Of a DNA stretch of 52,459 bases, positions 1,675 through 52,459 are shown in pieces. The DNA is taken from contig JACRGV010000036.1 in the NCBI GenBank assembly GCA_016212215.1, positions 1 to 52,459 of the forward strand. Reading direction: 5' to 3'. Position numbers and translations under genes: made by a program. Below the pieces are notes generated by a model. It had not been told where the DNA came from. It worked only from the letters and a program-made list of their open reading frames with translations, and searched no databases. This stretch comes from Nitrospirota bacterium (GTDB taxonomy: Bacteria > Nitrospirota > 9FT-COMBO-42-15 > HDB-SIOI813). Position 1 is the first letter of the stretch; each line of letters opens with the position of its first letter.

Positions 1675-2467
1675 AAGCATGGTGGTGGTAGTCTCCGGCT
1701 ATGACATACGTGCCACTGTCTTTTGTAGTTACAATAACCTGCTTCCCGTATATCTCAGTAAGTATCTTTTCATTTAAGACCTCAGCAGGCGTCCCATACA
1801 CATAGAGCTTAGTTTTGAGAAGTGCCATACGGTCTACATAAGGGCTGATCATGTTTATGTCATGTGTAACAAGGAGTATGGTAAGTTTCAGATTCTTGTG
1901 AATGTTTGAGATAAACTTGATCATACTGTACTGTGTAGGTGTATCAATCCCTGTAGTCGGTTCGTCCATTAGTAAGACCTCCGGCTGTTGTACAAGTGCC
2001 CGTGCTATGAATACCCTTTGCTGCTGCCCTCCTGATAAGTGTCCAAGAGGTGACTCTATATAGGTATCCATTTCTACCTCTCTTAGTGCCTCTAACACAA
2101 GCTCTTTATCCTTACGGGATGTCCGCTTAATAAGGCCGATAGAGCTGTATCTGCCCATCATTACGGTTTCTCCTACTGTAACAGGGAAGTTATAATCTAT
2201 CTGCCCTTTTTGAGGTATATATCCAATCTTTGATTTGTGGCTGCACCGTAGCTTGTGACATGCACAATCAAATATCTGCACAGATCCGGAAGTAGGGCGC
2301 ACAAGCCCAAGTACTGATTTAAGCAGGGTAGTCTTTCCTGAACCGTTTGGACCTATAATGCCTACAAATTCTCCCTGATGAATTTGTAGACTGACATCTC
2401 TGATGGCGGTCCTGTTCTGATAGGAAATTGTGGCATTTGAGAATTTGATTATAACGTTATCGTTCAT
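1673..2467 (-). CDS. Metal ABC transporter ATP-binding protein (ZnuC/MntA family)
   Basis: A 264-residue ABC ATPase. Visible motifs are Walker A GPNGSGKTT (about residues 39-47), Q-loop IPQKGQIDYNFPVTVGE, signature LSGGQQQR (about 143-150), Walker B VLLMDEP and a switch histidine in LLVTHDI. The Q-loop text and length match the zinc/manganese importer subfamily. The protein ends in a His-rich tail (GDYHHHA), which may bind metal but could simply come from the adjoining inverted repeat that supplies the stop codon. Start ATG lies in a modular repeat flank (GATTTTTGA-ATGAA). It is preceded by the binding-protein gene and followed by the permease gene. Confidence 0.9.
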   Translation of the reverse strand: MNDNVIIKFSNATISYQNRTAIRDVSLQIHQGEFVGIIGPNGSGKTTLLKSVLGLVRPTSGSVQIFDCACHKLRCSHKSKIGYIPQKGQIDYNFPVTVGETVMMGRYSSIGLIKRTSRKDKELVLEALREVEMDTYIESPLGHLSGGQQQRVFIARALVQQPEVLLMDEPTTGIDTPTQYSMIKFISNIHKNLKLTILLVTHDINMISPYVDRMALLKTKLYVYGTPAEVLNEKILTEIYGKQVIVTTKDSGTYVIAGDYHHHA

Positions 2468-2720
2468 TCAAAAATCAACCCCATCCCCACCCTACCCCTC
2501 CCCTTGAAGGGGAGGGAATCAACAACATAGCCCCCTCTCCCTCAGGGAGAGGGTTAGGGTGGGGTTTTCATTGCCCTTTGTGAGCGCCCCGCTCATGTAA
2601 GTTCATCCGAAAATAACCCCTAACGGTACGTTAGGGGTCGACAGGCTCACATTGACACCATGGATGTCATGGTGAGCCTGTCGAACCATGATTCCATTTT
2701 CATCTCTTGCTTCTAACCTC
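2465..2720. repeat. Compound modular repeat between substrate-binding and ATPase genes
   Basis: Three palindromic cores lie in series. First is a G-rich type (about 2467-2570). Then comes the GAGCGCCCCGCTCATG flank and a perfect 9-bp palindrome CCCCTAACG/CGTTAGGGG (2617-2625, 2629-2637). Last is TCGACAGGCTCAC/GTGAGCCTGTCGA (2638-2650, 2672-2684). The left end supplies the ATPase start codon context; the right end abuts the purine-rich tract next to the binding-protein stop. Confidence 0.75.
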
Positions 2721-8702: not shown

Positions 8703-8886
8703 AACTCACAGGGGCGCTGCAAAACGTTTTAAAGTTACAGGAACTGGTAAGATAGTAAGACGCAAGGCTTCAGGAAGCCATCTGCTGACACATAAAAGCT
8801 CGGCCAGGAAAAGGGTCTTAAAACAGGCAGTGATTGTTGATAAGGCGAATGAAGATAATATGAAAAAGCTGTTACCTTATGGATAA
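8683..8886 (+). CDS. rpmI: 50S ribosomal protein L35
   Basis: 67 residues, highly basic, full family length. The L35 signature KLKTHRGAAKRFKVTGTGKI is at the N-terminus, followed by the SHLLTHKSSARKRVL block. The ATG at 8683 follows a GGGAGAGAG site inside the end of infC, and the two genes overlap by 20 nt, which suggests translational coupling. A repeat-filled 174-bp spacer separates it from rplT. Confidence 0.97.
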   Translation: MSKTKLKTHRGAAKRFKVTGTGKIVRRKASGSHLLTHKSSARKRVLKQAVIVDKANEDNMKKLLPYG

Positions 8887-9060
8887 AATAGTAAGCAGGT
8901 AGCAGGTAGCAGTAAGCAGGAGAAAGAAGTAACCCCACCCTCACCTTAATCCTCTCCCTGAGGGAGAGGAAATTCCCTCCCCTTCAAGGGGAGGGTTAGG
9001 GTGGGGATGGGGTTATTTTCGGATAAACAAGATTCATTTTTAAATAAAGGAGGATTTTTC
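8887..9060. repeat. Modular repeat between rpmI and rplT
   Basis: Begins with GTAGCAGGTAGCAGTAAGCAGG-like purine-rich short repeats directly after the rpmI stop. A G-rich palindromic core (about 8935-9015) and the terminal module GGTTATTTTCGGATAAAC follow. Here the module has ATA where other copies have ATG. A separate AAAGGAGG at 9046-9053 is used for rplT. Confidence 0.75.
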
Positions 9061-9417
9061 ATGCCACGCGCTAAAGGTGGACCAAAAACAAGAAGACGCA
9101 GAAAGAAGGTATTAAAACTTGCAAAAGGATTCTGGGGCGGGAAACACAGACTTTACAGAACTGCCACAGAGACTGTAGACAAAGGGCTTTGTTATGCTTA
9201 CCGGGACAGGAGACAGAAAAAGAGGAGTTTCAGGGCCCTCTGGATCGTCAGGATAAATGCAGCAATAAGAGAGCATGGGCTGTCCTACAGCAAGTTTATA
9301 GCAGGGCTTAAAAAGGCCGGTATTACATTGGACAGAAAGGTGCTTGCAGACCTCGCGGTAAATGACCCTGCCGGATTTGCAAAGGTCGTTCATACAGTTG
9401 TAGGGGTTGCTGCCTGA
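9061..9417 (+). CDS. rplT: 50S ribosomal protein L20
   Basis: 118 residues, normal length. L20 binds 23S rRNA early in 50S assembly, and in some bacteria it represses its own operon. The N-terminus [20 protein letters not shown] and the later [16 protein letters not shown] are diagnostic. ATG 9061 is chosen over an in-frame upstream start at 9001, because AAAGGAGG lies 7 nt before it and the 20 extra residues would be translated repeat. It ends the thrS-infC-rpmI-rplT cluster. pheST, which follows in E. coli, is not here. Confidence 0.97.
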
Positions 9418-9429
9418 GGTTCATAGAGA

Positions 9430-9520
9430 AATCCTCTCCGGCGGGGTAAGAAAACCCCGCCTATCCATTTCTATGAGGATAGATGGGACATTCTTGTCCC
9501 ACTCTTTTTCGAGCTATGTG
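9430..9520. repeat. Type I modular repeat (possible bidirectional terminator)
   Basis: A strong hairpin, GGCGGGG then TAAGAAAA then CCCCGCC (about 9440-9461), is followed by a GATAG...GGGACATTCTTGTCCCA hairpin and CTCTTTTTC. It lies between convergent rplT and the ABC permease gene and could stop transcription. The core is near-identical at six other sites in the window. Confidence 0.7.
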
Positions 9521-9568
9521 AACCTTGGTTCATGTGCGTTCGTCTGTGCGGAAATGCTGTATTCAGGT

Positions 9569-10777
9569 TTACTCATGACGCAGTGCCTCAATAATCTCCT
9601 GGTTTGCTGCCCTGTATGCAGGGTAAACACCGAAAAATATACCAACACAGGCAGAAAATAGCGTGGCAAGTGCTATATTCCAAAACTCCATAACAGGGGT
9701 CATCTGGGGTACAAATTTTGAAAGAATGAAACCGCCTGCATAGGCTAATAAGATTCCAATAGTGCCTCCAATCAGGCTGAGCACCATAGATTCAATCAGA
9801 AATTGCAGTAAGATGTCCTTCTTCGTTGCCCCAACAGCCTTTCTTATTCCAACCTCATGGGTCCTCTCCCTTACAGAGACAAGCATAATATTCATAATGC
9901 CTATACCGCCGACCACCAAAGAAATTGCCGCTATTCCTGCAAGTACTGCCGAGAGTGTCTTTAGGATTGAGGTCAGGCTTGAAAGAAGGGAACTCTGGGT
10001 AAGGATAGTAAAATCTTCTTTATTGTTATGCCGTTTCTTTAAGATTGATGCTATCTGATTCTTTGCCTCGTCTACCATTACGGCACTTCTGGCTTTAGCC
10101 CTTAATCCGAACAGTCTGTCTGTATTAAATACCCTTTCTGCTGAAGTGACCGGTATGTAAACGATGTCATCCATATCATCGGTTCCCATGAATGCACCTT
10201 TCCTCTCCATGATACCTATAACCCTGAATCCTGACCCCCCGATTTTTACAATCTCTCCGAGAGGATTCTTACTCCCGAAAAGCTCGCTTTTTATAGTGTG
10301 TCCAATGGTACAGACCCTTCTGGATGCATCTACATCATCTTTCGTAATAAATCCGCCGGAATCCACATTTAAATTGATTACTTTTATGAATGCCTCATCT
10401 GTCCCGATGACCATTACACTTCTTTCCCTTTCAATATAACGAACATCGGCTGTACCGACAATTACTGCGGATGTTTCCTCTAAAGCATAAGCATTTTTCC
10501 TGACAGCAGCGGCATCATCCATGCTCATCTTTTGTACCCCTTCCATGCCGGGATGCCCTATACCCTTAGTCTCTGTTTTACCCGGGCTGACGATGATGAG
10601 ATTAGTGCCTATTCCCATAAATTGCCCTACAAGGTATTCTCTGAAACCTGCTGTCATGGAGACAAGGAGGATAACTGACCCGACCCCGATTATAATGCCG
10701 AGCATAGTCAGAAATGAACGGAGGCTGTTTTCAAGTATTGACGCAAAGGCTACTCTAAGGAATTCTATAAATTTCAT
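9569..10777 (-). CDS. MacB-type ABC transporter permease
   Basis: 402 residues. One membrane segment near residues 20-43, a large periplasmic MacB_PCD domain (about 45-280), then three C-terminal segments with the FtsX/MacB signature ERTHEVGIRKAVGATKKDIL near residues 305-324. Such proteins are mechanotransmitters that drive export of antibiotics, toxins or peptides through an outer-membrane channel. The separate ATPase (10950-11645) and membrane-fusion protein (11668-12858) upstream complete a MacAB-like unit, all on the minus strand. No TolC gene is nearby. The ATG sits in a modular repeat end (GATTTTCAC-ATGAA). The cargo is unknown. Confidence 0.9.
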   Translation of the reverse strand: MKFIEFLRVAFASILENSLRSFLTMLGIIIGVGSVILLVSMTAGFREYLVGQFMGIGTNLIIVSPGKTETKGIGHPGMEGVQKMSMDDAAAVRKNAYALEETSAVIVGTADVRYIERERSVMVIGTDEAFIKVINLNVDSGGFITKDDVDASRRVCTIGHTIKSELFGSKNPLGEIVKIGGSGFRVIGIMERKGAFMGTDDMDDIVYIPVTSAERVFNTDRLFGLRAKARSAVMVDEAKNQIASILKKRHNNKEDFTILTQSSLLSSLTSILKTLSAVLAGIAAISLVVGGIGIMNIMLVSVRERTHEVGIRKAVGATKKDILLQFLIESMVLSLIGGTIGILLAYAGGFILSKFVPQMTPVMEFWNIALATLFSACVGIFFGVYPAYRAANQEIIEALRHE

Positions 10778-10949
10778 GTGAAAATCAACCCCATTCCCAC
10801 CCCTCCCCTTGAAGGGGAGGGAATATACTCAGTCCCCTCTCCCTCAGGGAGAGGGTTAGGGTGAGGGTGGGGTTTTCATTGCCCCTTTGTGAGCGCTCAG
10901 CTCATGCACGTTTCTTGCTTCTGACTTCTTACCTCTTGCTTCTGCTTCC
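10778..10949. repeat. Modular repeat between MacB-like permease and ATPase genes
   Basis: In gene orientation: a purine-rich (AGAAGTAAGA-like) tract after the ATPase stop, the CATGAGCTGAGCGCTCACAAAGG flank, a G-rich double hairpin core, then GATTTTCACATGAA giving the permease start. It shows the full module order of the family. Confidence 0.8.
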
Positions 10950-11667: not shown

Positions 11668-12858
11668 TCACTTCCCTTCCTCTATCATGACCTTCTTCCC
11701 ATCCTCAATACCTTCCATATCTAAGGAAGTAATCACAGGCTCTCCTTCTTTCAGGCCTTCAAGTATCTGGGTTGAGTCCCAATTTGATATGCCTGCCTTA
11801 ATATCAATCTTCCGTACTATGTTCTTTCCTATACTGTAAACAAACTTCTTTGTCTCTTTTTCAACAATAGTATTTGTGGGAATTAATAATACGTCTGTTT
11901 GTGTATGAAGGATTATCTCTCCATCTACTGAGGCGCCGACCGGTAGATGGGCCTTATCATCTTTGTTTACTGCTATTTCCACGTCAACAGTGCGGTTTTG
12001 TTCAAGGGTCTTTGATACTACAGGAGATATGAAGATTACCTTTCCCCTGAATATCTTATCCGGTGCTGTATCACTAACTATCCGTGTCGTCTGCCCCAGC
12101 CTTATCTTTGTTGCATCAACCTCATCAAACGGGACTTTTACTTTTATGACTGAGTCATCAATAACCTCACAGAAAGGCTTTAATCCCTGTGCTGCGGATA
12201 TATTCTGCTGAGAAGAGATAAGCCCCCCCTCCGTTCCTGCGTAAGATGGCAGCTCTCCAATGGTGGCATCTAAAAAGGAAATCCGGCCGTTAAATGGGGC
12301 GCGGATATTTGTCTTCTCAAGCTCTTCTTCAGTGAGTCTGATACTGAGTTTTGCCTCAGTGATAGCGTTCTTTGCTATGGCAAACGCCTTTTCAGCCGCA
12401 GAGAATTGACTTTTGACCTCATCAAATCTGGAGTCAGGGACAGCGCCCCCTTCATAAAGCTTCCGGGTTCTTTCATGGTTCTGTCGGGAAAGGTTAAACT
12501 GATCTTCCAATTCATGTAACCTTAATTCAGCAGTAGTGAGTGCAGCCTTCTGTAGTTCAAGTTTTATAGTAAGTTCAGCATCATCTAATTTAATGATTAC
12601 GTCACCCTCTTTTACGCGGTCTCCTTCCTTAAAATTTACCTTTTTGATCTTTAGAGGTAGCAGGGCCTGCAGTTTTACCCTCCTGAGGGGTTCTACAGTG
12701 CCGCTTGAAACACCTGTAATCGTCTTTTCAATTGCCCCCTTCTTTACCCTCGTTATCTTTACTTTGATAATGCCTTGCTTAGAATAATAGAAGACTACAG
12801 CCGCTATTATTACTAAAAGGATAATTACGTATATACCCCGTCTTATATAAGTCTTCAT
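11668..12858 (-). CDS. Membrane-fusion (periplasmic adaptor) protein, MacA/YknX-like
   Basis: 396 residues. An N-terminal membrane anchor (about 9-27), a barrel-sandwich half (LQALLPLKIKKVNFKEGDRV), a helical hairpin (about 95-180, Leu/Glu/Lys-rich), the return lipoyl half (TNIRAPFNGRISFL), then beta-barrel and membrane-proximal domains. It bridges the inner-membrane ABC transporter and an outer-membrane channel. First gene of the three-gene exporter. Its ATG lies inside the end of a type I modular repeat (AAGGGATTTTCGG-ATGAA), so the repeat supplies the ribosome site. Confidence 0.9.
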   Translation of the reverse strand: MKTYIRRGIYVIILLVIIAAVVFYYSKQGIIKVKITRVKKGAIEKTITGVSSGTVEPLRRVKLQALLPLKIKKVNFKEGDRVKEGDVIIKLDDAELTIKLELQKAALTTAELRLHELEDQFNLSRQNHERTRKLYEGGAVPDSRFDEVKSQFSAAEKAFAIAKNAITEAKLSIRLTEEELEKTNIRAPFNGRISFLDATIGELPSYAGTEGGLISSQQNISAAQGLKPFCEVIDDSVIKVKVPFDEVDATKIRLGQTTRIVSDTAPDKIFRGKVIFISPVVSKTLEQNRTVDVEIAVNKDDKAHLPVGASVDGEIILHTQTDVLLIPTNTIVEKETKKFVYSIGKNIVRKIDIKAGISNWDSTQILEGLKEGEPVITSLDMEGIEDGKKVMIEEGK

Positions 12859-12975
12859 CCGAAAATCCCTTCCGGCGGGGTAAGAAAACCCCGCCTATCC
12901 CTATCTACGAGGATAGGCGGGACATTCTTGTCCCACTGATTTTCATGTCCCTTTGTGAGTGCCTCGCTCATGACC
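12857..12975. repeat. Type I modular repeat upstream of the adaptor gene
   Basis: TCATCCGAAAATC flank, GGCGGGGTAAGAAAACCCCGCC hairpin, TATCC...GGATA pairing, GGCGGGACATTCTTGTCCCAC, then GATTTTCATG and the GTGAGTGCCTCGCTCATG flank. A reference-quality copy of the family, read here in reverse relative to the gene it precedes. Confidence 0.85.
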
Positions 12976-13051
12976 GGTTCATAAGGTTCCCTGTAAATTC
13001 CTCCGGACATATATTACCTGTATGATATTACACCGTCAATTATATATTTGC

Positions 13052-18737: not shown

Positions 18738-18876
18738 CCCTAATCGCATTGACAAGAACCTTACCCCTCCCCTTAACCCCCTCCCGCAAGCGGAGGGGAG
18801 ATGTCCCCGTTAATCCCCCCTCCCTTGACGGGAGGGGGTGAGGGTGAGGGGGAGGGTGAACTATGGAGATTATTGA
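18738..18876. repeat. G-rich modular repeat whose end supplies the ribA start
   Basis: C-rich/G-rich palindromic blocks (about 18765-18858) followed by ACTATGGAGATTATTGA-GTG. The GGAG there is the ribosome site and the GTG the start codon of ribA. Confidence 0.75.
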
Positions 18877-19563
18877 GTGAAAGAAACTGTGAAAGGTTTA
18901 TCAAAAAAAGTTATATTGGAATTGCTGGCTGAAAACCGTGACCATGAGTGTGAAGGGATTGGCCGGGATAAGATATGCGGGCGAATAACAGCGGTTGCAG
19001 ACCTACCTTCACGCTATGGCCGGTTTCAGGCAATTGCATTCTTTAATAACCGTGACAATAAAGACCATGCGGCACTTGTGCATGGGAATGTCATTAACCA
19101 GGAGGACGTGGTTGTCAGGCTGCACTCCGAGTGTCTTACCGGCGATGTGTTTGGTTCGCTTCGCTGCGACTGCCATGACCAGCTTATCACTGCATTACAT
19201 ACCATAGAGAAGGTCAAGGCAGGTGTACTTATTTATCTGAGACAGGAAGGGAGGGGCATAGGTTTTAGTAATAAGATTAAGGCGTATGCACTTCAGGAAG
19301 AGGGGCTTGATACAAAAGAGGCCAACATAGCGCTCGGCTTTCGTGATGATGAAAGAGAGTACAGCGTTGCAGCCCATCTTATAAGGTCATTAAAGATTAA
19401 GTCTGTAAGGCTTATGACCAACAATCCCCACAAGATAGCTGACCTTGAACAATACGGAGTGAAAATAACTGAGCGCATCCCTTTAATTATCCAGCCTAAT
19501 AAATACAACCGTTTTTACCTTGAGACTAAAGAGAAGAAATTCGGACACTTATTAAGCGGATAA
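18877..19563 (+). CDS. ribA: GTP cyclohydrolase II
   Basis: 228 residues. Opens GTP in the first step of riboflavin synthesis. Zinc cysteines are in HSECLTGDVFGSLRCDC (Cys86, Cys97, Cys99); the GTP-binding RQEGRGIGF motif and the C-terminal MTNNPHKIADLEQYGVKI match the family. It is the single-domain form, without an RibB part. GTG start, 8 nt after GGAG; both lie in the repeat-derived leader. The first 25 residues are an extra helix upstream of the usual start of the fold. Confidence 0.92.
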   Translation: MKETVKGLSKKVILELLAENRDHECEGIGRDKICGRITAVADLPSRYGRFQAIAFFNNRDNKDHAALVHGNVINQEDVVVRLHSECLTGDVFGSLRCDCHDQLITALHTIEKVKAGVLIYLRQEGRGIGFSNKIKAYALQEEGLDTKEANIALGFRDDEREYSVAAHLIRSLKIKSVRLMTNNPHKIADLEQYGVKITERIPLIIQPNKYNRFYLETKEKKFGHLLSG

Positions 19564-21133: not shown

Positions 21134-21829
21134 TTACAAGAGCGGTCTCAATAGGGTATCGGAGAGTCTTTGAAAAGATTTGTGATTAAGCGGGTTATTG
21201 CCTGATATAAATGGGATTATTCCTATTACAGGTATCTCTGAATACTTCTCTATAGTTTCGACGCAGGTTTTTTCTGCAAGTGTCTTTCCCCCTTTTCCCG
21301 CATGATTTATGACTATCCCTTTGATTTGAATATTTTTATTTTTCATGTAGTTAATTGTAAGCAGCGTGTGATTTATAGTTCCGAGGTCAGGCCTTGTTAT
21401 GATGAGTGCAGGCAGGCCAAGTTTTTTTATAAGGTCCGCCACATAAAAATACCTTATTATGGGGACCATGATGCCGCCTATTCCTTCAACAATCATATAT
21501 TCATGTTGCCTGCATAATACCTTATATGCTTTTATTATCTTTCTAATGTCTATAGGGGTGCCTGATATCTCAGCGGCTACAGAGGGTGCGACAGGTTCTC
21601 TGAACATATACGGTGTGACAAGTTCTATCGGGTCATCAACAGATGCGGCCTTCATAAGGTAAAGAGTATCTTCAGGGATAAGCCTCCCTTTTTTTATTAT
21701 GCAGCCCGTATGAACGGGTTTCATGATACCTGTATTTATCCCGCTATTCTTTAATGCGGATGCAATGCCTGCACTTACAAATGTCTTGCCGACTCCGGTG
21801 TCTGTAGCTGTGATAAAGATGCCGTTCAT
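21134..21829 (-). CDS. bioD: Dethiobiotin synthetase
   Basis: 231 residues. Closes the ureido ring of dethiobiotin from DAPA, CO2 and ATP. MNGIFITATDTGVGKTFVSA is the ATP-binding P-loop; KPVHTG carries the carbamate-site lysine; EGIGGIMVPI is the typical VEGAGG region. The ATG lies in the end of a type I modular repeat (GGTGATTTTCGG-ATGAAC). Last biotin gene on this strand, separated from fabG by 500 bp of repeats and from bioF by the accessory island. Confidence 0.93.
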   Translation of the reverse strand: MNGIFITATDTGVGKTFVSAGIASALKNSGINTGIMKPVHTGCIIKKGRLIPEDTLYLMKAASVDDPIELVTPYMFREPVAPSVAAEISGTPIDIRKIIKAYKVLCRQHEYMIVEGIGGIMVPIIRYFYVADLIKKLGLPALIITRPDLGTINHTLLTINYMKNKNIQIKGIVINHAGKGGKTLAEKTCVETIEKYSEIPVIGIIPFISGNNPLNHKSFQRLSDTLLRPLL

Positions 21830-22329
21830 CCGAAAATCACCTCCGGCGGGGTTGGAAAACCCCGCCTATTCATTTCTACGAGGATAGGCGGGACATTCCT
21901 GTCCCGCTGATTTTCATGGTCCTTTGGAACCCTATGTTCATAGGAGTTCATCCAAAAATCCCTTCCGGCGGGGTAAGAAAACCCCGCCTATTCATTTCTA
22001 CTAGGATAGGCGGGACTTTCTTGTCCCGCTGATTTTCATGGCCCTTTGTGAACCCTCGCTCATGAGGGTTCATCCGAAAATCACCATAGCTCACCCTCCT
22101 CCTAACCCCCTCCCGTCAAGGGAGGGGGAAAAGCTTAGCATCCCCCTCCCCTGGCGGGAGAGCTGCAATTAAATTCCTACCAAACTCCTCCCCCCTCCCT
22201 TGCGGGGGGAGGCAGGAGGGGGGCACCGGGTAAGGGGGCCTTATTTTCATCATCCTTTGTGAGCCGAAGGCTCATGCCCTTTTTCTTGCTTCTATCTTCT
22301 TGCTTCTTACTTCTGCTCATTGCTCACTG
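21830..22329. repeat. Tandem array of three modular repeats (500 bp without genes)
   Basis: Two type I copies lie head to tail (about 21830-21955 and 21957-22072), each with the GGCGGGG/CCCCGCC hairpin and ending GATTTTCATGG. A long G-rich copy follows (about 22075-22245), then the GTGAGCCGAAGGCTCATG hairpin and a CTTGCTTCT/TTACTTCTG purine tract complement next to the fabG stop. No gene is present. Confidence 0.85.
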
Positions 22330-24549: not shown

Positions 24550-24810
24550 ATGAAGGCAGATTTGATTTATCATGAAAAAAGAATAGAGGGGAATGAGGTT
24601 GTCGAGATTAAAATATGGTCAGTTTCAAAAAGCCAGGATAAGCCTCACGGATATAAATATTCGTTGGTACATATCAGGGAAGGTAAACGCATAGTCGGAT
24701 ATGATAATGCCGAAGGTAAAGGAGATCACCGGCATTATGGAGACATCGAAGAATCATACAGGTTTGAGGGTCTGGATAAGGGTCTGTTCAGGAGTAAACT
24801 GTGCTTTTAA
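24550..24810 (+). pseudogene. TumE-family (DUF6516) toxin, 3' end replaced by a MITE
   Basis: 86 residues. KADLIYHEKRIEGNEVVEIK, HGYKYSLVHI, RIVGYDNAEGKGDHRHY and ESYRFEGLDK are DUF6516/TumE features, a toxin family paired with HTH antitoxins. A 181-bp MITE begins in codon GLDK (24780). The last nine residues (GLFRSKLCF) are MITE-encoded, and the usual C-terminal helix is missing. The antitoxin-like gene is intact downstream at 25005. The toxin has probably lost activity; expression may persist from the promoter at 24511. Confidence 0.7.
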
Positions 24811-24960
24811 ACGCTCAGATTTCGGTCAGGTTTGGGTGCGACTGATTGAGTAAGCCCGAAGGCGTAGTGGAGACTACGTCAAGGGGTTGCGATTGAGGAG
24901 CACCCAAAGATGGCCGGAAGATGAGATGTATAAAAGTATAGGTTATTTCTGAACAGACCC
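24780..24960. mobile_element. 181-bp MITE, copy A (inside the toxin gene)
   Basis: Terminal inverted repeats begin GGGTCTGTTCAG and end CTGAACAGACCC. TAA occurs on both sides (24777-24779 and 24961-24963), a likely target duplication. The interior is near-identical to copies B (28649-28829) and C (52324 onward). No transposase. Confidence 0.9.
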
Positions 24961-25004
24961 TAAGCTATTTTCAGATTTTTATTATGATATTAGGGGGGAC
25001 AAAA

Positions 25005-28621: not shown

Positions 28622-28648
28622 TGAGGTCAAAAATCTACAGAAAGGTAA

Positions 28649-28829
28649 GGGTCTGTCATAAAATAACTTGTGCATTTAGGCGCTAAGATTTCGGTCAGGT
28701 TTGAGTGCGACCGATTGAGCAAACCCGAAAGCGTAGTTGAGTCTACGATGAGGGGTTGCGATTGAGGAGCACACAAAGATGGCCGGAAGATGAGATGCAT
28801 AAATGTATAGGTTATTTTATGACAGACCC
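28649..28829. mobile_element. 181-bp MITE, copy B
   Basis: GGGTCTGTCATAAAATAAC at the left and its reverse complement at the right, with TAA/TTA at the borders. It lies between the bioB operator and the clpC promoter. Confidence 0.92.
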
Positions 28830-28834
28830 TTAGC

Positions 28835-28862
28835 TTGACTTTGAGATTTAAACTACGATAAT
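28835..28862 (+). promoter_or_regulatory. clpC promoter
   Basis: TTGACT (28835-28840) and GATAAT (28857-28862), spacing 16, starting five bases after the MITE. No CtsR-type direct repeat is visible. Confidence 0.55.
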
Positions 28863-28911: not shown

Positions 28912-31341
28912 ATGTTTGAACGGTTTACGGATAGGGGAAGAAAGATAATTATTTTGGCAAGGGAAGAGGCTGAAAGGCATCAGAACGACTATCTCGGCAC
29001 AGAACACGTTCTCCTTGCAATCCTGAGAGATGGTGAAGGGGCTCCTCTTATAGTCCTGAAAAAGATGGGACTTTCCCCTGAGCAGATTCGTATGGAGGTA
29101 GAAAGGAATCTCCCGTCCGGCGGCGTTACCATGACTTATGGTGAGATCCCGTTTACCCCCCGTGTTAAAAAGGTAATAGAGTATGCAATTGAAGAGGCGA
29201 AACTATTAGGGCATAACTTTGTAAGCAGTGAACACCTGCTCCTCGGTCTTATCAGGGAAGAAGATGGTATCGGTGGAAAGATACTTAGAAGCCTTGGTGC
29301 TAATCTGCTTACCGCAAGACAGCTTACCCTCAGCTTCCTCAAGCGGGTTCAGACAAGGGAGCGTGAGAAAAAGAGCAACACACCGGCGATTGACGAATTC
29401 GGCAGAGACCTTACAGCACTTGCTGTTGAAGGCCAGCTTGACCCTGTTATCGGCCGCGATAATGAGATTGAACGTGTACTACAGATATTAAGCAGGCGTA
29501 CTAAGAATAATCCGGTTTTGATAGGCGAGGCCGGTGTCGGCAAGACTGCAATTGTTGAGGGGCTTGCCCAGAAGATTGTAAACCTTGAGGTACCTGATAA
29601 CCTTCTGAATAAGAGGGTGGTTGCACTTGACCTTGGGGCACTCGTTGCCGGAACAAAGTACAGAGGACAGTTTGAAGAGCGGTTAAAGGTAATAATGAAA
29701 GAGATTACTACAGCCGGCAATATTATTATATTTATTGACGAACTCCATACCCTTGTAGGCGCCGGTGCTGCTGAAGGTTCAATAGATGCATCCAATATGC
29801 TGAAGCCTGCATTTGCAAGAGGGGAGATACAGTGCATAGGTGCAACAACCCTCGATGAGTACAGAAAATACATTGAGAAAGACGGTGCCCTAAAACGGAG
29901 ATTCCAGCCTATCTATGTTAGTCCAACCACTTCAGATGAAACTGTAGAGATTATAAAGGGGCTTCGTAAGAGATATGAAGACCACCACAATGTTTATATA
30001 GTTGATGAGGCTATTGAAGAGGCTGTCCGCTTGTCTGACAGGTATATTACAGACAGGTTCCTTCCGGATAAGGCGATTGATGTGATTGATGAGGCCGGTT
30101 CACGTGCTAAATTAGTCTCCCATTTTGTACCGGAAAAGATCCGTGCAGTTGAACAGGAATTAAAGAATGTCCTGCGTGAGAAAGAGGTAGTAAGCAGGAT
30201 GCAGAGGTATGAGGCTGTTGCAAGGTTCAGGGAAGAAGAGGAAAAGCTCAGGGATATGATTGATGATGCAAAGCGTGACTGGCGTAATCAGCTTGATAAG
30301 TCAAGGCCTGTTGTCGGCAAGGAAGAGATAGCATTTATTGTTTCAAAAATGACTGGAATTCCTCTGATAAAGCTTGAAGAGGGTGAGACACAAAGACTGC
30401 TTATGATTGAAGAAGAACTTCATAAGAGGATTGTAGGACAGGATGAGGCAATATCCGTTATTGCAAGGGCAATCAGACGTTCACGTGCCGGATTAAAGGG
30501 TGTGAAGAGGCCGATTGGCTCGTTTATCTTCCTCGGTCCGACAGGTGTTGGAAAGACAGAGCTTGCCAAGGCCCTTGCTGAATATCTCTTTGATAATGAG
30601 GATGCCCTTATAAAGATAGATATGTCGGAGTATATGGAGAAGTTCAGCTCGTCAAGGCTGATGGGAGCGCCTCCGGGATATGTAGGACATGAGGAGGGCG
30701 GTCAGTTAACAGAGAAAGTCAGAAGGAGACCTTACTCTGTAATACTTTTTGATGAGATAGAAAAGGCCCATCCTGATATGTTTAATATGCTCTTACAGGT
30801 ATTTGAGGATGGATGCCTTACAGACAGTCTGGGACGCAAGGTAGACTTCAGAAATACGATAATAATAATGACATCAAATATTGGTGCAAGGGTTATTGAA
30901 AAAGGTGCGGCATTAGGTTTCCAGACACCGTCTGAAGAGACCCAGATAAAAAAGATGAAAGGCTCAATTACTACAGAGCTGAAGAATGTTTTCAATCCTG
31001 AGTTCCTGAACCGTATTGATGAGATTGTGGTATTCCATCCGCTTAACAAGGAACATCTTATAAAGATCGTTGACATTCTTTTAGATGAGGTAAACGAGCG
31101 TCTTACAATCAGCGATATGCACCTTGAGGTAACAACAGAGGTTAAGGAATGGATTATAAATGAGGGCTATCAGCACATGTACGGGGCACGTCCTATGAGG
31201 CGTGCAATCCAGAAGTATATTGAAGACCCGCTCTCAGAGGAAATAATTAAGGGACGGTTTAAGGAGTCAAAAAGGATAAAAAGCGTGCTTCGAGACGGCA
31301 GACCGGATTTTATAGAGGAAGAGGTGCTGGCAGAGGTCTGA
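28912..31341 (+). CDS. clpC: ATP-dependent Clp protease ATPase subunit ClpC
   Basis: 809 residues. AAA+ unfoldase that feeds substrates to ClpP. Two Clp N-repeats (about 1-145), first AAA module with GEAGVGKT (about 202-209) and [14 protein letters not shown], a short UVR-like middle region (about 425-460), second AAA module with [19 protein letters not shown] and [11 protein letters not shown], and a C-terminal D2-small domain with [10 protein letters not shown]. The N-domain and UVR place it in ClpC rather than ClpB/ClpA. GGGGAGG is 6 nt before the ATG. A strong terminator follows, so it is probably monocistronic. clpP is not in the window. Confidence 0.95.
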
Positions 31342-31346
31342 ATAGG

Positions 31347-31410
31347 CAGAGGTTAGAAGTAAGAAGTAAGAAGGAAAAAGATAGAAGTTAGAGGCAAGAG
31401 GCAAGATTAG
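31347..31410 (+). repeat. Purine-rich AGAAGTAAGA-type tract after clpC
   Basis: Tandem short units AGAAGTAAGA / AGAAGTTAGAGGCAAGA. Similar tracts follow tsaD, the kelch gene and rpmI, always just after a stop codon. Confidence 0.75.
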
Positions 31411-31411
31411 A

Positions 31412-31469
31412 GGTTGTCAAGGCTTGTGGCAGGATTGTAAATCTGTTAAGCTTTGACAGCCTTTTTTTT
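31412..31469 (+). terminator. Rho-independent terminator of clpC
   Basis: GGTTGTCAAGGCTT (31412-31425) pairs with AAGCTTTGACAGCC (31448-31461) using G-U pairs, followed by eight T (31462-31469). Confidence 0.85.
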
Positions 31470-31509
31470 GTTTTTAGGTATTAGTTAATAGGTAATGTGA
31501 GGAAACTCC

Positions 31510-31671
31510 AACATTTCCTTTCCTTCAAGGGGAGGGTGCTAAGCTATTCCCCCTCCCTTGACGGGAGGGGGGTAGGGGGAGGGTGAGAAATCAGCGGGAC
31601 AGGAATCTCCCGCCTATCCTCATAGAAATGGATAGGTGGGGTTTTCTTACCCCGCCGGTGGGGATTTTCGA
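31510..31671. repeat. G-rich and type I modular repeats ahead of the deacetylase gene
   Basis: A G-rich core (31515-31585) and a type I copy (31593-31671) in gene orientation: GCGGGACAGGAATCTCCCGC, GATAGGTGGGG, TTTTCTTACCCCGCC, then GGGGATTTTCGA-GTG. The final GTG is the start of the next gene. Confidence 0.85.
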
Positions 31672-32499
31672 GTGAAAAAATTCATTTTAATAATAGCCTT
31701 GATTATCATTACGGCTGCTGTATTATTTCTGATTTATAGAAACAGGCCGGTCAGCAAGCCGGTACTTGTGCAGAAACAGGAGCGAATAGAGACGCCGCAG
31801 CCGGAGAGTGTTCCCGAAGCTCTGCCGCCTCATCATAATAATGCAAGGATTGCGATTGTGATTGATGACCTAGGTTATGATAAAAAAATTTACAGAGAGT
31901 TTGTTGAACTTGGGATACCGCTAACATTTTCTGTTCTTCCGGGGGAAAGGTATTCTGCAAATATTGCACGGGGTGCAAGCCATCTGAAATATGAGGTAAT
32001 GCTTCATCTGCCGATGGAACCACAAAGCAGATTAGTAAATCCAGGCAAATGGGTAATCCTGCACAATATGTCCAGAGATGAAATGCTTAGTCAGCTTTCA
32101 AAGGATATACGTGCAGTCCCCAATATTGCAGGTGTTAATAACCACATGGGTTCGCTTCTCACAGAAGACAGCCATGCAATGAATATTGTACTTGGAGGCC
32201 TGCGTAATAAAGGTTTGTATTTCCTTGACAGTAAAACTACTCCTAACTCAAAGGCGTTTGAGATTGCAAAGGGCATGGGGATCAAGAGCGGGAGGCGTGA
32301 TGTTTTTCTTGATAATAATGCTGATGTAGACTACATTAAGGGACAGATAGATATAGCAATCAAATTGGCTAAAAAGAAGGGTGAGGCTACTGTTATAGGT
32401 CATCCACGGATAGAGACATTGAAGGCACTCAGGGCAAGGCTTTCTGCTTTTGAAAAAGAAGGGATTGATTTGGTCCCGGTGTCTGAAGTGGTGAATTAA
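31672..32499 (+). CDS. Divergent polysaccharide deacetylase (YibQ-like), membrane anchored
   Basis: 275 residues. N-terminal anchor (FILIIALIIITAAVLFLIY), Pro-rich linker, then a PF04748-type NodB-like fold: IAIVIDDLGYD, FSVLPGERYS, MLHLPMEPQ, GVNNHMGSLLTED, FLDSKTTPNSKA and ATVIGHPR. These proteins are periplasmic and may act on envelope polysaccharide; activity is unproven. GTG 31672 is chosen: GGGG lies 8 nt upstream and the anchor starts at once. An in-frame upstream GTG at 31636 would only add translated repeat. Confidence 0.85.
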   Translation: MKKFILIIALIIITAAVLFLIYRNRPVSKPVLVQKQERIETPQPESVPEALPPHHNNARIAIVIDDLGYDKKIYREFVELGIPLTFSVLPGERYSANIARGASHLKYEVMLHLPMEPQSRLVNPGKWVILHNMSRDEMLSQLSKDIRAVPNIAGVNNHMGSLLTEDSHAMNIVLGGLRNKGLYFLDSKTTPNSKAFEIAKGMGIKSGRRDVFLDNNADVDYIKGQIDIAIKLAKKKGEATVIGHPRIETLKALRARLSAFEKEGIDLVPVSEVVN

Positions 32500-32681
32500 G
32501 TGGGATGATAATAAGACCCCCTCACCCGGAGCCCCCCTCCTGCCTCCCCCCACAAAGGAGGTGGGAGGAATTTGGTAGGAATTTAATTGCAGCTCTCCCG
32601 CCAGGGGAGAGGGTGCTTAGATTATTCCCCCTCCCTTGACGGGAGTGGGTTAGGGGGAGGGTGAGCTATGGGGATTTTAGA
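32500..32681. repeat. G-rich modular repeat supplying the tsaD ribosome site
   Basis: Two C-rich/G-rich palindromic cores, then GTGAGCTATGGGGATTTTAGA-ATG. GGGG and the ATG of tsaD are in the terminal module. Confidence 0.8.
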
Positions 32682-33746
32682 ATGAGTTACATCCTTGGCA
32701 TAGAATCTTCATGTGATGAGACCGCCGCTTCAGTACTGAAAGATGGCCGGCAGATTTTATCGAGTATAATTGGTTATCAATATGAAATACACAATAAATA
32801 CGGGGGCATTGTCCCTGAGCTTGCCTGCCGCAGGCACATAGAAGTTATTTATCCTATTGTTAATGAGGCAATAGAAAAGGCCGGCATTAAATTAAGCGAC
32901 CTGGATGCAGTTGCGGTAACATCAGGGCCTGGTTTGATTGGTGCGCTTCTTGTTGGTATTTCCTTTGCAAAGTCCCTTTCATACTCCTTAAACATCCCGC
33001 TAATAAGTGTTAACCATCTGGAAGGCCACTTATGGGCAATATGCCTTAAACACAGGGTTCAGCGTCCATTTATCGCACTTGTTGTCTCTGGTGGACACAC
33101 AAATCTTTATATCGTCGAGGATATCGGCACATACAAGTTGCTTGGAAGCACACTTGATGATGCAGCAGGAGAGGCATTTGATAAGGTCTCAAAGATATTA
33201 GGTCTAGGCTATCCCGGAGGGCCTGCGATTGAGAAGCGTGCTGAATCAGGGGATGCAGGGTCAATACAATTTCCAAGGCCATTGTTAAAAAAAGACGGTT
33301 TTGATTTTAGTTTCAGTGGCATGAAAACTGCAGTGTTAAGTTATGTAAAGAGCAGGTATAAGTATGCCCATGTTGATGATATACCTGAAATCTTAAACAG
33401 TGAGGAGCAGCTAAGGTCTGATATTGCCGCAAGTTTCCAGAATGCAGTAGTGGATGTCCTGGTGCACAAGAGTCTTGCCGCAGTTCAGAAGACAGGCATT
33501 AAGAGGCTCGTGTTATCAGGCGGTGTGGCTTGCAATAAGCTATTGAGAGAAAAGATGAAGGAGGCAGGCGTTCGGGAGGGTATAAAGGTTTATATACCTG
33601 AACCTGAGTTTTGTACTGATAATGCGGCAATGATAGCATGGATTGGTAACCGGTATTTTAAGAAAGGGAAATTCGCAGACATGAAGTTGAATCCTGATGC
33701 GGACAGCAAGATAGGGCGTGGAGAAGAGGTTAGAGGTAGGAAGTAA
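32682..33746 (+). CDS. tsaD: tRNA threonylcarbamoyladenosine biosynthesis protein TsaD
   Basis: 354 residues. With TsaB, TsaE and threonylcarbamoyl-AMP it makes t6A37 in ANN-decoding tRNAs. YILGIESSCDETAASV, metal ligands in ACRRHIEVI and SVNHLEGHLWA, VSGGHTNLY, FSFSGMKTAV and LSGGVACN are diagnostic. ATG 32682 is preferred to GTG 32661, which lies in the repeat. The C-terminal GRGEEVRGRK is read from the purine-rich tract that follows, so the native end may be altered by a few residues. Confidence 0.95.
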   Translation: MSYILGIESSCDETAASVLKDGRQILSSIIGYQYEIHNKYGGIVPELACRRHIEVIYPIVNEAIEKAGIKLSDLDAVAVTSGPGLIGALLVGISFAKSLSYSLNIPLISVNHLEGHLWAICLKHRVQRPFIALVVSGGHTNLYIVEDIGTYKLLGSTLDDAAGEAFDKVSKILGLGYPGGPAIEKRAESGDAGSIQFPRPLLKKDGFDFSFSGMKTAVLSYVKSRYKYAHVDDIPEILNSEEQLRSDIAASFQNAVVDVLVHKSLAAVQKTGIKRLVLSGGVACNKLLREKMKEAGVREGIKVYIPEPEFCTDNAAMIAWIGNRYFKKGKFADMKLNPDADSKIGRGEEVRGRK

Positions 33747-33843
33747 GAAGTTAGAAGCAAGAAGTAAGATATAAGAGCTAAGCGAAAGTTTATTCCCTCC
33801 CCCTTGAGGGGGTAGGGTGGGGGTGAGCAATGGAGATTATTGG
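33722..33843. repeat. Purine tract plus G-rich modular repeat after tsaD
   Basis: AGAAGTTAGAAGCAAGAAG tract, CCCTCCCCCTTGAGGGGG core, then GCAATGGAGATTATTGG-TTG. The GGAG and TTG serve the kelch gene. Confidence 0.8.
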
Positions 33844-35565: not shown

Positions 35566-35730
35566 GCACGGGTGAATAGAAGTAAGAAATTAGAAGTAAG
35601 AGGCAAGAAGCAAGATAAAAACAAAGCCCCCTCACCCGGACCCTCTCCCGCCAGGGGAGAGGGTCCATAGAATATTCCCCCTCCCTTGATGGGAGGGGGT
35701 TAGGGGGAGGGTGGCTACGAGGATTTTCGA
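35566..35730. repeat. Purine tract plus G-rich modular repeat before the transglycosylase gene
   Basis: AGAAGTAAGAAATTAGAAG tract (35579-35615), two G-rich cores, then CTACGAGGATTTTCGA-GTG. GAGG and GTG serve the next gene. Confidence 0.8.
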
Positions 35731-36351
35731 GTGAAATTATCATTATTTTCTACATTGCTTTTCCTTTCATATCTCTGCATAGTAATAATCATGTTAAGCC
35801 CTCAATCTGTAAAGGCGGAGATATATACTTATGAAGATGAAAACGGGACCGTACATTTTTCCAATGTACCTACAGACCCTCAGTATAAGATGATTATTCC
35901 TCCAAAGATTGAAAAACGTGTCCCATCCTATCTTTCTCTAAAATCGGATAATGGTATAAAGAAATCTGAATTTAATAAATTAATAGAGACGAAGTCTTAC
36001 AAGTACGGGCTTGACCCGGCCCTTGTAAAGGCAGTCATAGCCGTAGAGTCCGACTTCAATCCCAATGCCATATCAGAAAAAGGGGCGAGGGGGCTGATGC
36101 AATTGATGCCTATGACAGCCAATGAACTTGGGGTATTTGATTCTTTTAATCCTGATGCGAATGTTGACGGAGGGACGAAATACCTGAGATACCTGCTGGA
36201 CTATTTTAGTTGGGATGTAGACCTTGCCCTTGCAGCATATCATGCCGGAATTATGCGGGTGATACAGAATACCGGTGTTCCGCCAATACCTGCCACACAT
36301 CAATACATCGGCAAGGTAAAGACTACTTACAGGAAGTATATGGTGGAATAA
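35731..36351 (+). CDS. Lytic transglycosylase (SLT family) with DUF4124 N-terminus
   Basis: 206 residues. Signal peptide (about 1-29), a DUF4124-like segment (EIYTYEDENGTVHFSNVP), then a compact SLT domain: KAVIAVESDFNPNAISEKGA with the catalytic Glu, GLMQLMPMTANELG and ALAAYHAGIMRV. Cleaves peptidoglycan glycan strands in the periplasm. GTG start in the repeat terminal module, as for its upstream neighbours. Confidence 0.9.
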   Translation: MKLSLFSTLLFLSYLCIVIIMLSPQSVKAEIYTYEDENGTVHFSNVPTDPQYKMIIPPKIEKRVPSYLSLKSDNGIKKSEFNKLIETKSYKYGLDPALVKAVIAVESDFNPNAISEKGARGLMQLMPMTANELGVFDSFNPDANVDGGTKYLRYLLDYFSWDVDLALAAYHAGIMRVIQNTGVPPIPATHQYIGKVKTTYRKYMVE

Positions 36352-36403: not shown

Positions 36404-38071
36404 TGCCGCTTTACCTTCAGTCTTCAGCCTATCAACCTTCAGACTAAAGTGTTTTACCTTTCCGCTCCACTCCGGGAAATCTTCACGGAAATTTGTACCG
36501 ACACTCTCTTTCCGCTTTAAGGCTGATAAAGTGATCGCCATTGCAGTATTCAGCATATTCACAGCCTCTAATTCCTTTCTTGTGAATCCATGAATTTCAA
36601 AAGAAGAGAGGAGGCAGATTATATCTTTTAATGCCTGCTTTAATGTTGATTCTGAACGGATTATTCCGACATTTTGCCACATTGTCTTTTTTAGTTCTTC
36701 TTTGACGGTTTCACTCGAAAATTTTTCCGGCGGGGTTAGAAAACCCCGCCTATCTGCAAATGGTGATGGCCCCCCATCCGTGAATAATAAATTGAGGATA
36801 GGTGGGACATTCTTGTCCCGCTGATTTTTATGCCCCTTACTGAGTCTAAAGTCGCTGTCTTTTATCCGTATCTCCCTGTTTATTCTGATACCCCCTGAAT
36901 AACCTAACGCTGATATACCGGTTCTTTTGCCGAATACAAGTCCTTCCAGCAGAGAATTGGATGCAAGCCTGTTTGCCCCGTGAACGCCTGTACATGCAGC
37001 TTCACCTGCTGCAAAAAGGCCGGGAACAGATGTACGTCCCCATATATCTGTCTTGATTCCGCCTATAATAAAGTGAGCAGCAGGACTTACAGGTATCATA
37101 TCCTTTGTAATATCAATCCCATATTGCTTACATGCATTCCACGCCGTTGGGAACCGTTCTCTAAGTAATGAAGATTTTATACGGGTTGCATCCAATAGTA
37201 CAAAGTCTGAATTGGTTTTCTTCATCTCGTAAATTATGGATCGTGAGACTTCATCACGTGGTGCAAGTTCAGCAAGGGGGTGATATGCAGGCATAAAACG
37301 TTTCTTTTTGACATTTCTAAGAAGTGCACCTTCCCCACGTAATGCCTCTGTTATGAGGAAGGATGGGGCGCCTTTCAGAGCAAAGGATGTTGGGTGAAAC
37401 TGTACGAACTCCATGTCTTCAAGCACAGCACCGCTCCTGTATGCAGCGGCAATACCATCACCTGTAGCTCCTGATGGATTTGACGTTCGTAAAAAAATCT
37501 GCCCGGCCCCGCCTGTTGCAATGATTACAGCCTTTGCAGCAACAGGGAATATCTCACCGCTATTTTCATTTAAGAGTATGGCCCCTTTGCATGTACCATC
37601 TCTTATTATCAGGTCTACGATAAAATGTTTTGAGAGTTTGGAGATATGATTACTCTCAAGGGCCTTTGACCTCAGTACCTTTACAATTTCTTCGCCGGTA
37701 GAATCTTTGAAGTGCAATATCCGTCGTCTACTATGAGCGCCTTCAAGTCCTGCGAGATATTTACCGTCACTCTTATCAAACCTTACTCCCCATTCGATTA
37801 TCTGGCTTACTAACTCCGGCCCCTCCTCAACAAGCGCTTTTACCGCCTGCTTTTTACACAGACCGTATCCTGCCTTGAGGGTATCTTCGATATGAAAATG
37901 AGATGTGTCGTCTTCACCGGTGACAACAGCAATGCCGCCCTGTGCATAACTTGAACTGCTCTCAATTGACCTGTCTTTTGTAACTATGAGGACTTTCCCG
38001 TGAATGCTAAGCTCAATCGCAGTCCTCAGACCGGCTATACCACTGCCTATGATAAGGAAATCTGTTTTCAT
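36398..38071 (-). CDS. nadB: L-aspartate oxidase with an in-frame repeat insert
   Basis: 557 residues (about 510-540 is usual). Oxidises aspartate to iminoaspartate for NAD synthesis. FAD motif IIGSGIAGL (6-14), SSSSYAQGGIAVV, HSRRRILHFKDSTG, QFHPTSF, GEAACTGVHGANRLASNSLLEG are characteristic. Between the FAD part and the C-terminal helical domain, about residues 409-452 (RDKNVPPILNLL...RRGFLTPPEKF) are encoded by a type I modular repeat at 36716-36846. The last residues (GKAAG) also read into a short repeat. The ATG lies in another repeat end (AAGGGTTTTTCAG-ATG). Confidence 0.92.
   Translation of the reverse strand: MKTDFLIIGSGIAGLRTAIELSIHGKVLIVTKDRSIESSSSYAQGGIAVVTGEDDTSHFHIEDTLKAGYGLCKKQAVKALVEEGPELVSQIIEWGVRFDKSDGKYLAGLEGAHSRRRILHFKDSTGEEIVKVLRSKALESNHISKLSKHFIVDLIIRDGTCKGAILLNENSGEIFPVAAKAVIIATGGAGQIFLRTSNPSGATGDGIAAAYRSGAVLEDMEFVQFHPTSFALKGAPSFLITEALRGEGALLRNVKKKRFMPAYHPLAELAPRDEVSRSIIYEMKKTNSDFVLLDATRIKSSLLRERFPTAWNACKQYGIDITKDMIPVSPAAHFIIGGIKTDIWGRTSVPGLFAAGEAACTGVHGANRLASNSLLEGLVFGKRTGISALGYSGGIRINREIRIKDSDFRLSKGHKNQRDKNVPPILNLLFTDGGPSPFADRRGFLTPPEKFSSETVKEELKKTMWQNVGIIRSESTLKQALKDIICLLSSFEIHGFTRKELEAVNMLNTAMAITLSALKRKESVGTNFREDFPEWSGKVKHFSLKVDRLKTEGKAAG
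36716..36846. repeat. Type I modular repeat in frame within nadB
   Basis: GAAAATTTTTCCGGCGGGG...AACCCCGCC hairpin, an internal insertion, GGATAGGTGGGACATTCTTG, CTGATTTTTATGCCCCTTA. Same core as 38080-38160, with about 25 bp of unrelated sequence between the hairpins that keeps the frame open. Confidence 0.85.
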
Positions 38072-38238
38072 CTGAAAAACCCTTCCGGCGGGGTAAGAAA
38101 ACCCCGCCTATCCATATCTACGAGGATAGGTGGGACTTTCTTGTCCCGCTGATTTTCATGGCCCTTTGTGAGCGCCCCGCTCATGACGGTTCATCCGAAA
38201 ATCCTTTCGAGTAAGCAGTGAGCAGATAAAACCTGCCT
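38072..38238. repeat. Type I modular repeat upstream of nadB
   Basis: Full copy: hairpin GGCGGGG/CCCCGCC, GGATAGGTGGGACTTTCTTG, GATTTTCATGG, then GAGCGCCCCGCTCATGACGG and a second CATCCGAAAATCC flank. It ends at the stop of the lipoprotein gene. Confidence 0.85.
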
Positions 38239-52217: not shown

Positions 52218-52341
52218 AAGACATCTGGAAGCACAGATTATTGAACGCTGCTGGTCAATCTACAATCTTTTAACAAGTACCTTTTCACCTTCAGACACAT
52301 TTCATCTTGGCTTCCCATCCTTAGGGTCTGTCATAAAATAA
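52207..52341 (+). pseudogene. Second gene of the pair, cut off by MITE copy C
   Basis: GTG 52207 opens a frame SYERHLEAQIIERCWSIYNL, then STFSPSDTFHLGFPSL, overlapping the upstream gene by 11 nt. At 52324 the frame enters the MITE and stops at TAA 52339-52341. The rest of the gene may lie beyond the MITE, outside the window. No family recognised. Confidence 0.5.
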
Positions 52342-52459
52342 CCTATACATTTATGCATCTCATCTTCCGGCCATCTTTGTGTGCTCCTCAATCGCAACCC
52401 CTCAGCGTAGATTCAACTACGCCTTCGGGTTTGCTCAATCGGTCGCACTCAAACCTGAC
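52324..52459. mobile_element. 181-bp MITE, copy C, inverted and cut by the window end
   Basis: GGGTCTGTCATAAAATAACC start and the following 116 bp are the reverse complement of copy B with few changes. TTA precedes it. Confidence 0.9.

Follow-up and report, generated by a model that had tools for sequence, protein, structure and literature searches.

Mosaic REP/MITE-like intergenic elements are an already known class of bacterial repeat. Neisserial intergenic mosaic elements (NIMEs) are intergenic arrays in which families of 30-160 bp repeats take turns with a short repeat whose termini are inverted (PMC3898611). The BOX elements of Streptococcus follow the order boxA-boxB(n)-boxC, and in S. 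suis the same boxB can be found between different ends (PMC3049150). REPs and BIMEs (GTAG/CGTC REPs with RAYT) occur as many hairpins between co-directional genes (PMC3733652); published unidirectional REPs lie near the 3′ end of the upstream ORF, with a varying distance to the downstream ORF. RPEs sit in frame in Rickettsia protein genes (PMC2229807), and the literature equates CGTC-1 and CGTC-4 with RPE-6 and RPE-4.

The repeats described here are from a Nitrospirota MAG, and were studied from one stretch of 52,459 nucleotides (the window) outwards. As in NIMEs (dRS3 + RS), they form mosaic intergenic arrays of a short repeat and repeat families, but their constant part is a 5′ hairpin (H) plus a 3′ end (T) that abuts a start codon; dRS3-like sequence is one of the cores rather than the frame, and dRS3 repeats do not flank RS cores. 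They share with REPs the many hairpins between co-directional genes and one core of CGTC form. However, the element end abuts the downstream start codon, there is no Y1 transposase gene (PF01797) in the genome sampled, and the H consensus carries neither a GTAG nor a CGTC tag, and of these repeats only one core, Z, fits the form of a tagged (20-40 bp) REP hairpin, CGTC...CCA. The layout is like that of BOX in that the end modules stay fixed and the middle ones vary, although the middles are unrelated families here and not a tandem count of one module. By location, a copy in frame inside nadB resembles RPEs and other in-frame MITEs, but these repeats have their main niche at start codons rather than within genes. 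The hairpin and the RTGAA that adjoins most copies might fit an IS200/IS605- or PATE-like element; a cognate Y1 gene with matching ends was not found in the genomes read. The exact abutment to native starts, with a ribosome-binding-like end, has to our knowledge not been described in the literature searched, outside which most subscription papers lay; the analogues it yielded were REP, BOX, NIME and RPE.

We regard these repeats as probably non-autonomous REP/MITE-like elements with a conserved H/T frame, an interchangeable palindromic core and a start-codon niche. In this reading the H hairpin would form the 5′ flank of the frame and the T end its 3′ flank, and between them would stand one of several palindromic cores.

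Layout and copy number of the repeats

The ATPase and permease genes of a putative ABC transporter are separated in the window by 172 bp, nearly all of which, a few bases excepted, is repeat DNA (Table 1). The fixed module order that a sequence-only reading had proposed is real: on the minus strand, from 10949 to 10778, a stop codon is followed by a purine heptad tract, a GAGC hairpin (H), a core and a GATTTTC end (T). The stop is the TGA of the ATPase gene, just ahead of the purine tract. The head of H reads CATGAGC...GCTCACAAAGGGGCAATGAAAA and core B reads CCCCACCCTCACCC...GGGGAGGGG...GGGGTT. The same reading counted the purine tract as part of the unit, which does not hold, as it is a separate and optional heptad repeat (AGAAGTA-like, also AGTGAGC- and AGTGAAT-like). 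Heptad tracts beginning at stop codons are found in the window at 10911-10949, 31348-31412, 33725-33789 and 35571-35621, and a 7-base unit that contains a stop gives stops in all three frames within ~21 bases.

Table 1. Positions in the window of repeat modules, repeat copies and flanking genes.
Positions	Strand	Feature	Basis
2463..2618	-	T-H-coreB-T array; T is the start of gene 1673-2467; a CCCCTAACG/CGTTAGGGG core precedes	sequence
9417..9550	-	diverged core-A copy; GTCATTCCC core here in G001	comparison
9569..10777	-	MacB/LolE-like ABC permease gene, start codon within T module	homology; relatives' ATGA overlap
10773..10786	-	T module GATTTTCACATGAA (GATTTTCAC then ATGAA), element end adjoining permease ATG 10777-10775	sequence
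10787..10872	-	core B, two G/C-rich hairpins (CCCTCTCCCTGAGGGAGAGG, CCCTCCCCTTCAAGGGGAGGG)	sequence
10873..10906	-	H module CATGAGCTGAGCGCTCACAAAGGGGCAATGAAAA: CATGAGC-loop-GCTCACAAAGG-NN-ATGAAAA hairpin head	compensatory G-C/A-T stem pair
10911..10949	-	purine heptad tract, AGAAGTA-like repeats, directly 3′ of upstream stop	same tracts at other stop codons
10950..11645	-	LolD/MacB-like ABC ATPase gene, upstream of inserted element	homology
12851..12980	-	H-coreA-T; T is the start codon (12858) of RND-type adaptor gene 11668-12858	sequence, homology
18755..18881	+	F/C-type core, end GGAGATTATTGA then GTGAA, the start codon of gene 18877; ATGA overlap in G001	comparison
21826..22081	-	tandem pair H-coreA-T; right T is the start of bioD-like gene (21829)	sequence
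31548..31676	+	F- and A-type cores and T (GATTTTCGA then GTGAA), start codon 31672	comparison
32546..32686	+	F-type core and GATTTTAGA then ATGAG, start codon 32682; genes abut in G001, no insert	comparison
35676..35735	+	F-type core and GATTTTCGA then GTGAA, start codon 35731	sequence
36690..36850	-	H-coreA-T in frame inside nadB, ~residues 409-455; absent from relatives	comparison
38067..38196	-	H-coreA-T ahead of nadB (start 38071)	comparison with relatives

The assembly measures 2.99 Mb in 164 contigs, and stretches adding up to 1.09 Mb of it were sampled; the best relatives of its permease point to Nitrospirota. Relatives G001, G003 and G004 were sampled in part, and all data are assembled MAGs. 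About 110-130 H copies occur in the 1.09 Mb. The exact H pattern gave 48 matches in the whole genome and a backwards control pattern none. Among 131 H copies the cores are A (71), B (25), F (12) and C (5), with others rarer; at least three cores had been claimed, and at least four unrelated types (A, B, F and C) are seen, with one common end, ATTTTCGG followed by RTGAA. Core A is 72 bp long (GCGGGACAAGAAAGTCCCGC...GGCGGGGTTTTCTTACCCCGCC), B ~91 bp, F often ~161 bp and C ~35 bp, while rare cores include heptad tracts, CACAGAGACACTGAG palindromes and TTCGACAAGCTCAGGATGA palindromes. At the fourth pair of the H stem 60 copies have G-C and 46 have A-T; mismatches are scarce (A-C 3, G-T 10), indicating that stem pairing is kept. 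The internal inverted pair is limited to the 7-bp GAAAATC/GATTTTC, and the outermost element ends are not inverted repeats.

The copy inside nadB (36690-36850) is translated between the FAD domain and the C-terminal domain. Pieces of core A are also found within four other homology-supported ORFs of the sampled genome.

Filled and empty gene junctions

Comparison with relatives shows the repeats to be present or absent at orthologous gene junctions, and they are probably mobile, REP/MITE-like modular insertions. At the permease junction the ATPase stop and the permease start overlap as ATGA, with no insert, in G001, G003, G006 and G008, and G004 has an element with the same frame and the core CGTCATTCCCGC, a CGTC/dRS3-type palindrome. 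Ahead of nadB an ATGA overlap is found in G004, G007 and G009; in G001 an H head is followed there by a CACAAAGGCAC core and a T-like end, and in the genome studied the series is heptads, T, H, core A, T. Altogether, an element is present in this genome and missing from the relative in 86 gene-pair comparisons (against G001, G003 and G004), and G001, of the same genus, is empty at 17 of the 24 element junctions compared.

ATGA overlaps are broken by an element at the permease, nadB and 18877 junctions, the neighbouring genes apparently being pushed apart without being broken. There is no clear target duplication at the empty/filled sites of the permease, nadB, 18877 and 32682. The ATGA overlap was considered as the specific target and rejected, as it is found at 13 of 86 empty sites vs 42 of 178 control comparisons; since overlaps are not enriched at empty sites, the preference would be for the start codon. 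The repeats could illustrate a way for small repeats to multiply in compact, operon-rich genomes with no obvious harm: they would land exactly ahead of a start codon and carry a ribosome-binding-like sequence with them. If this is true, translationally coupled gene pairs would become separately initiated at many places per genome.

The T end and the native start codon

The last module had been taken for a start module, itself a repeat cassette, but it proves to be the element end adjoining the downstream gene's own start codon. When right ends are aligned on ATTTTC, leaving downstream bases unconstrained, cores A, B, F and C have ATTTTCGG in common, followed by RTGAA in 68/89 (A), 52/77 (B), 25/40 (F) and 17/34 (C) copies. 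Beyond RTGAA there is little conservation, except where another H comes next; that junction reads GATTTTCGG then ATGAACnnnCATGAGC, which places the beginning of the next unit's left end at ATGAAC.

Across four genomes the T start is in frame with a homology-supported downstream gene in 37 of 50 cases, against an expected one third (p=5e-9), and the gene to the right of T shares its strand in 50 of 57 (p=2e-9). In the genome studied, 20 of the 29 terminal T copies that have a homology-supported same-strand gene to their right are in frame with it, with first aligned codons clustering near zero, and in G004, which belongs to another genus, the corresponding figures are 13/13 for strand and 10/13 for frame. 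T-type start codons in the window are 2467, 10777, 12858, 21829 and 38071 on the minus strand and 18877, 31672, 32682 and 35731 on the plus strand. Relatives that lack T have identical first codons in bioD (ATGAAYGGYATC), gene 2467 (ATGAACGATAAY), the gene at C9:42086 (ATGAAAGATATT), nadB (ATGAAAAC) and the permease (ATGAARTTTATW), so the last base of the element is the one just ahead of the native start codon.

Starts at empty orthologous sites carry RTGAA in 14 of 33 cases vs 29 of 186 control starts (Fisher p=0.0013, a small test). This suggests that insertion probably takes place immediately before RTGAA; on the opposite strand the target would be 3′ of TTCAY. The T end itself adjoins an RTGAA whose RTG is very often the native start of the downstream gene, and the ATGAAC at the start of the H unit itself would explain the growth of arrays of the form T, ATGAAC-H. 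At the left end TGAA is found in only 19 of 40 first H copies; the idea that its TGA is the upstream stop codon was rejected, being true in only 3 of 40 cases.

The bases preceding T in start-giving copies are GGAGGTGATTTTCGG, GGAGATTTTCGG and GGAAGGGATTTTCGG, and AGGAGCATTTTCAGG in G004. Pairing energies against a generic 16S rRNA tail (anti-SD) were -8.1 kcal/mol at T starts (n=15) vs -4.7 at other starts and -2.9 for random sequence; a second set of T starts gave -7.8 (n=18) vs -5.0 for shuffles of the same bases. The pairing is weaker in G004 (-6.5 vs -5.2), and at T starts it is partly owed to G-rich cores. We infer that the element may bring a working ribosome-binding site. Copies at start codons may have survived because the sequence before T (GGAGGTGATTTTCGG, GGAGATTTTCGG, AGGAGCATTTTCAGG) acts as a portable one. 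In the cases read, the stop of the upstream gene was furnished by inserted DNA (TTGAGG, TTAACC or stop-containing heptads), which is how heptads or other inserted sequence might supply the upstream gene with a stop. A more tentative proposal is that the family specifically seeks out gene starts, ahead of RTGAA, with a ribosome-binding site of its own in the inserted end, and so enters tight or overlapping junctions while leaving both genes active and ferrying interchangeable REP palindromes; we would put this a little below even.

Cores, their probable origin and their possible exchange

The H pattern is present in 9 of 10 family genomes, with a backwards control in none; in the rest of the sampled phylum it matched in three genomes only, all weakly. 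No exact match was found among public genomes and viral contigs, a search that very near genomes may lie outside. The same H/T frame holds different cores: A, B and F in the genome studied, CACAAAGGCAC in G001, GTAGTCGCAGGC in G003, and CGTCATTCCC and CCCCCTTAGTCCCCC in G004; G001 also has T with GTCATTCCC cores. Comparison thus shows a frame that is conserved across the bacterial family and cores that differ by genus. Such a family-wide frame with genus-specific palindromic cores would be a natural series on the capture and spread of REP-type sequences. In G004 the H loop often holds another repeat (TTCGACTGTTCGRCAMGCTCACAGCTCAG), nested in the frame hairpin, as on C44 (L188-L200; e.g. C44:48105, minus strand).

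The cores could instead be the mobile units, i.e. REP palindromes moved by RAYT that enter a fixed resident palindrome, GAAAATC/GATTTTC. REPs inside unrelated palindromes have been published for other bacteria (PMC3733652). Core Z fits both the dRS3 pattern ATTCCC(N8)GGGAAT, with 56 copies in 0.4 Mb of G004, and the CGTC...CCA REP form, which no cores but those of type Z in G004 and G001 fit; the dRS3 pattern is almost absent from the genome studied (3 in 1.09 Mb). In G001 one Y1 gene, and in G004 its Y1 gene, also have palindromes of the Z type (GTCATTCCC) nearby. However, no empty palindrome frame was seen in 2.1 Mb of four genomes, and at orthologous sites the entire H-core-T unit is missing, so that frame and core arrive together. 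We therefore consider separate movement of the cores unlikely.

Slightly more doubtful still is cassette exchange, which the sequence-only reading proposed; copies would trade cores by homologous recombination or gene conversion, their ends remaining fixed at each locus. Ends that stay constant around differing cores are indeed found, most strongly between genera, and module swapping over evolutionary time is supported as the probable history; ongoing exchange within the genome is not, as core-adjacent bases co-vary with the core. The 2-3 bases before ATGAAAA share 1.16 bits of mutual information (MI) with the core in this genome, against 0.29 when shuffled. Hairpin type depends on it weakly (MI 0.22 vs 0.07) and is largely common to A and B, GAGCGGGGCGCTC and GAACCGAGGGTTC each being found with both cores, as exchange would have it. 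The preceding core is independent of hairpin type, also in favour of exchange, in a small sample of 33 cases. Differing cores occupy orthologous sites at the permease, nadB, 31340-31672, 8886-9000 and 9417-9568. Two of these share the same T point: core A faces GTCATTCCC in G001 at 31340-31672, where G001 continues with GATTTTAGA and ATGAA, and CACAAAGGCAC in G001 at nadB. Such sites could be explained as well by insertion at a preferred site. At the permease, G001, which is closer than G004, is empty, and the two cores are best read as separate insertions; no half-exchanged core intermediate was identified among the copies.

Static decay products or vertically inherited RNA regulatory elements, with no mobility, are highly improbable, as conserved hairpins with a compensatory pair and a location between co-directional genes would suit them but a same-genus relative lacks the element at most sites, core sets are lineage-specific, and no Rfam model matched the window at the gathering threshold.

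Under the favoured reading of non-autonomous elements with an interchangeable core, the co-variation of core-adjacent bases and the shared hairpin types suggest that the joining of a given core to the frame was a rare event, after which the unit was copied whole. Core change would most likely be the rare capture of a REP-type palindrome by the frame, followed by copying of the H-core-T unit. Insertion may be carried out by a single-stranded IS200/IS605 or RAYT-like enzyme, proposed because of the hairpins near the ends, the fixed short target and the lack of a clear target duplication. Y1 genes are present in 7 of 10 family genomes. None of those read in relatives is flanked by H/T, and no autonomous copy was found in the genomes sampled; with no Y1 gene in the host genome either, the IS200/IS605-like mechanism is put forward as a proposal only.

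Two other repeats were observed in the window. A pair of 190 bp, 84% identical, lies at 24777-24966 and 28646-28835, noted together with 52323-52356; its ends (GGGTCTGTCATAAAATAA) resemble those of insertion sequences, there is no transposase inside, and the copy at 28646 is missing from the orthologous gap in G001. A separate high-copy repeat of ~130 bp at 1547-1675 spans the space from gene 696-1520 to gene 1673-2467 and takes in the end of the latter; it matches more than 30 places in G001 at ~90% identity.
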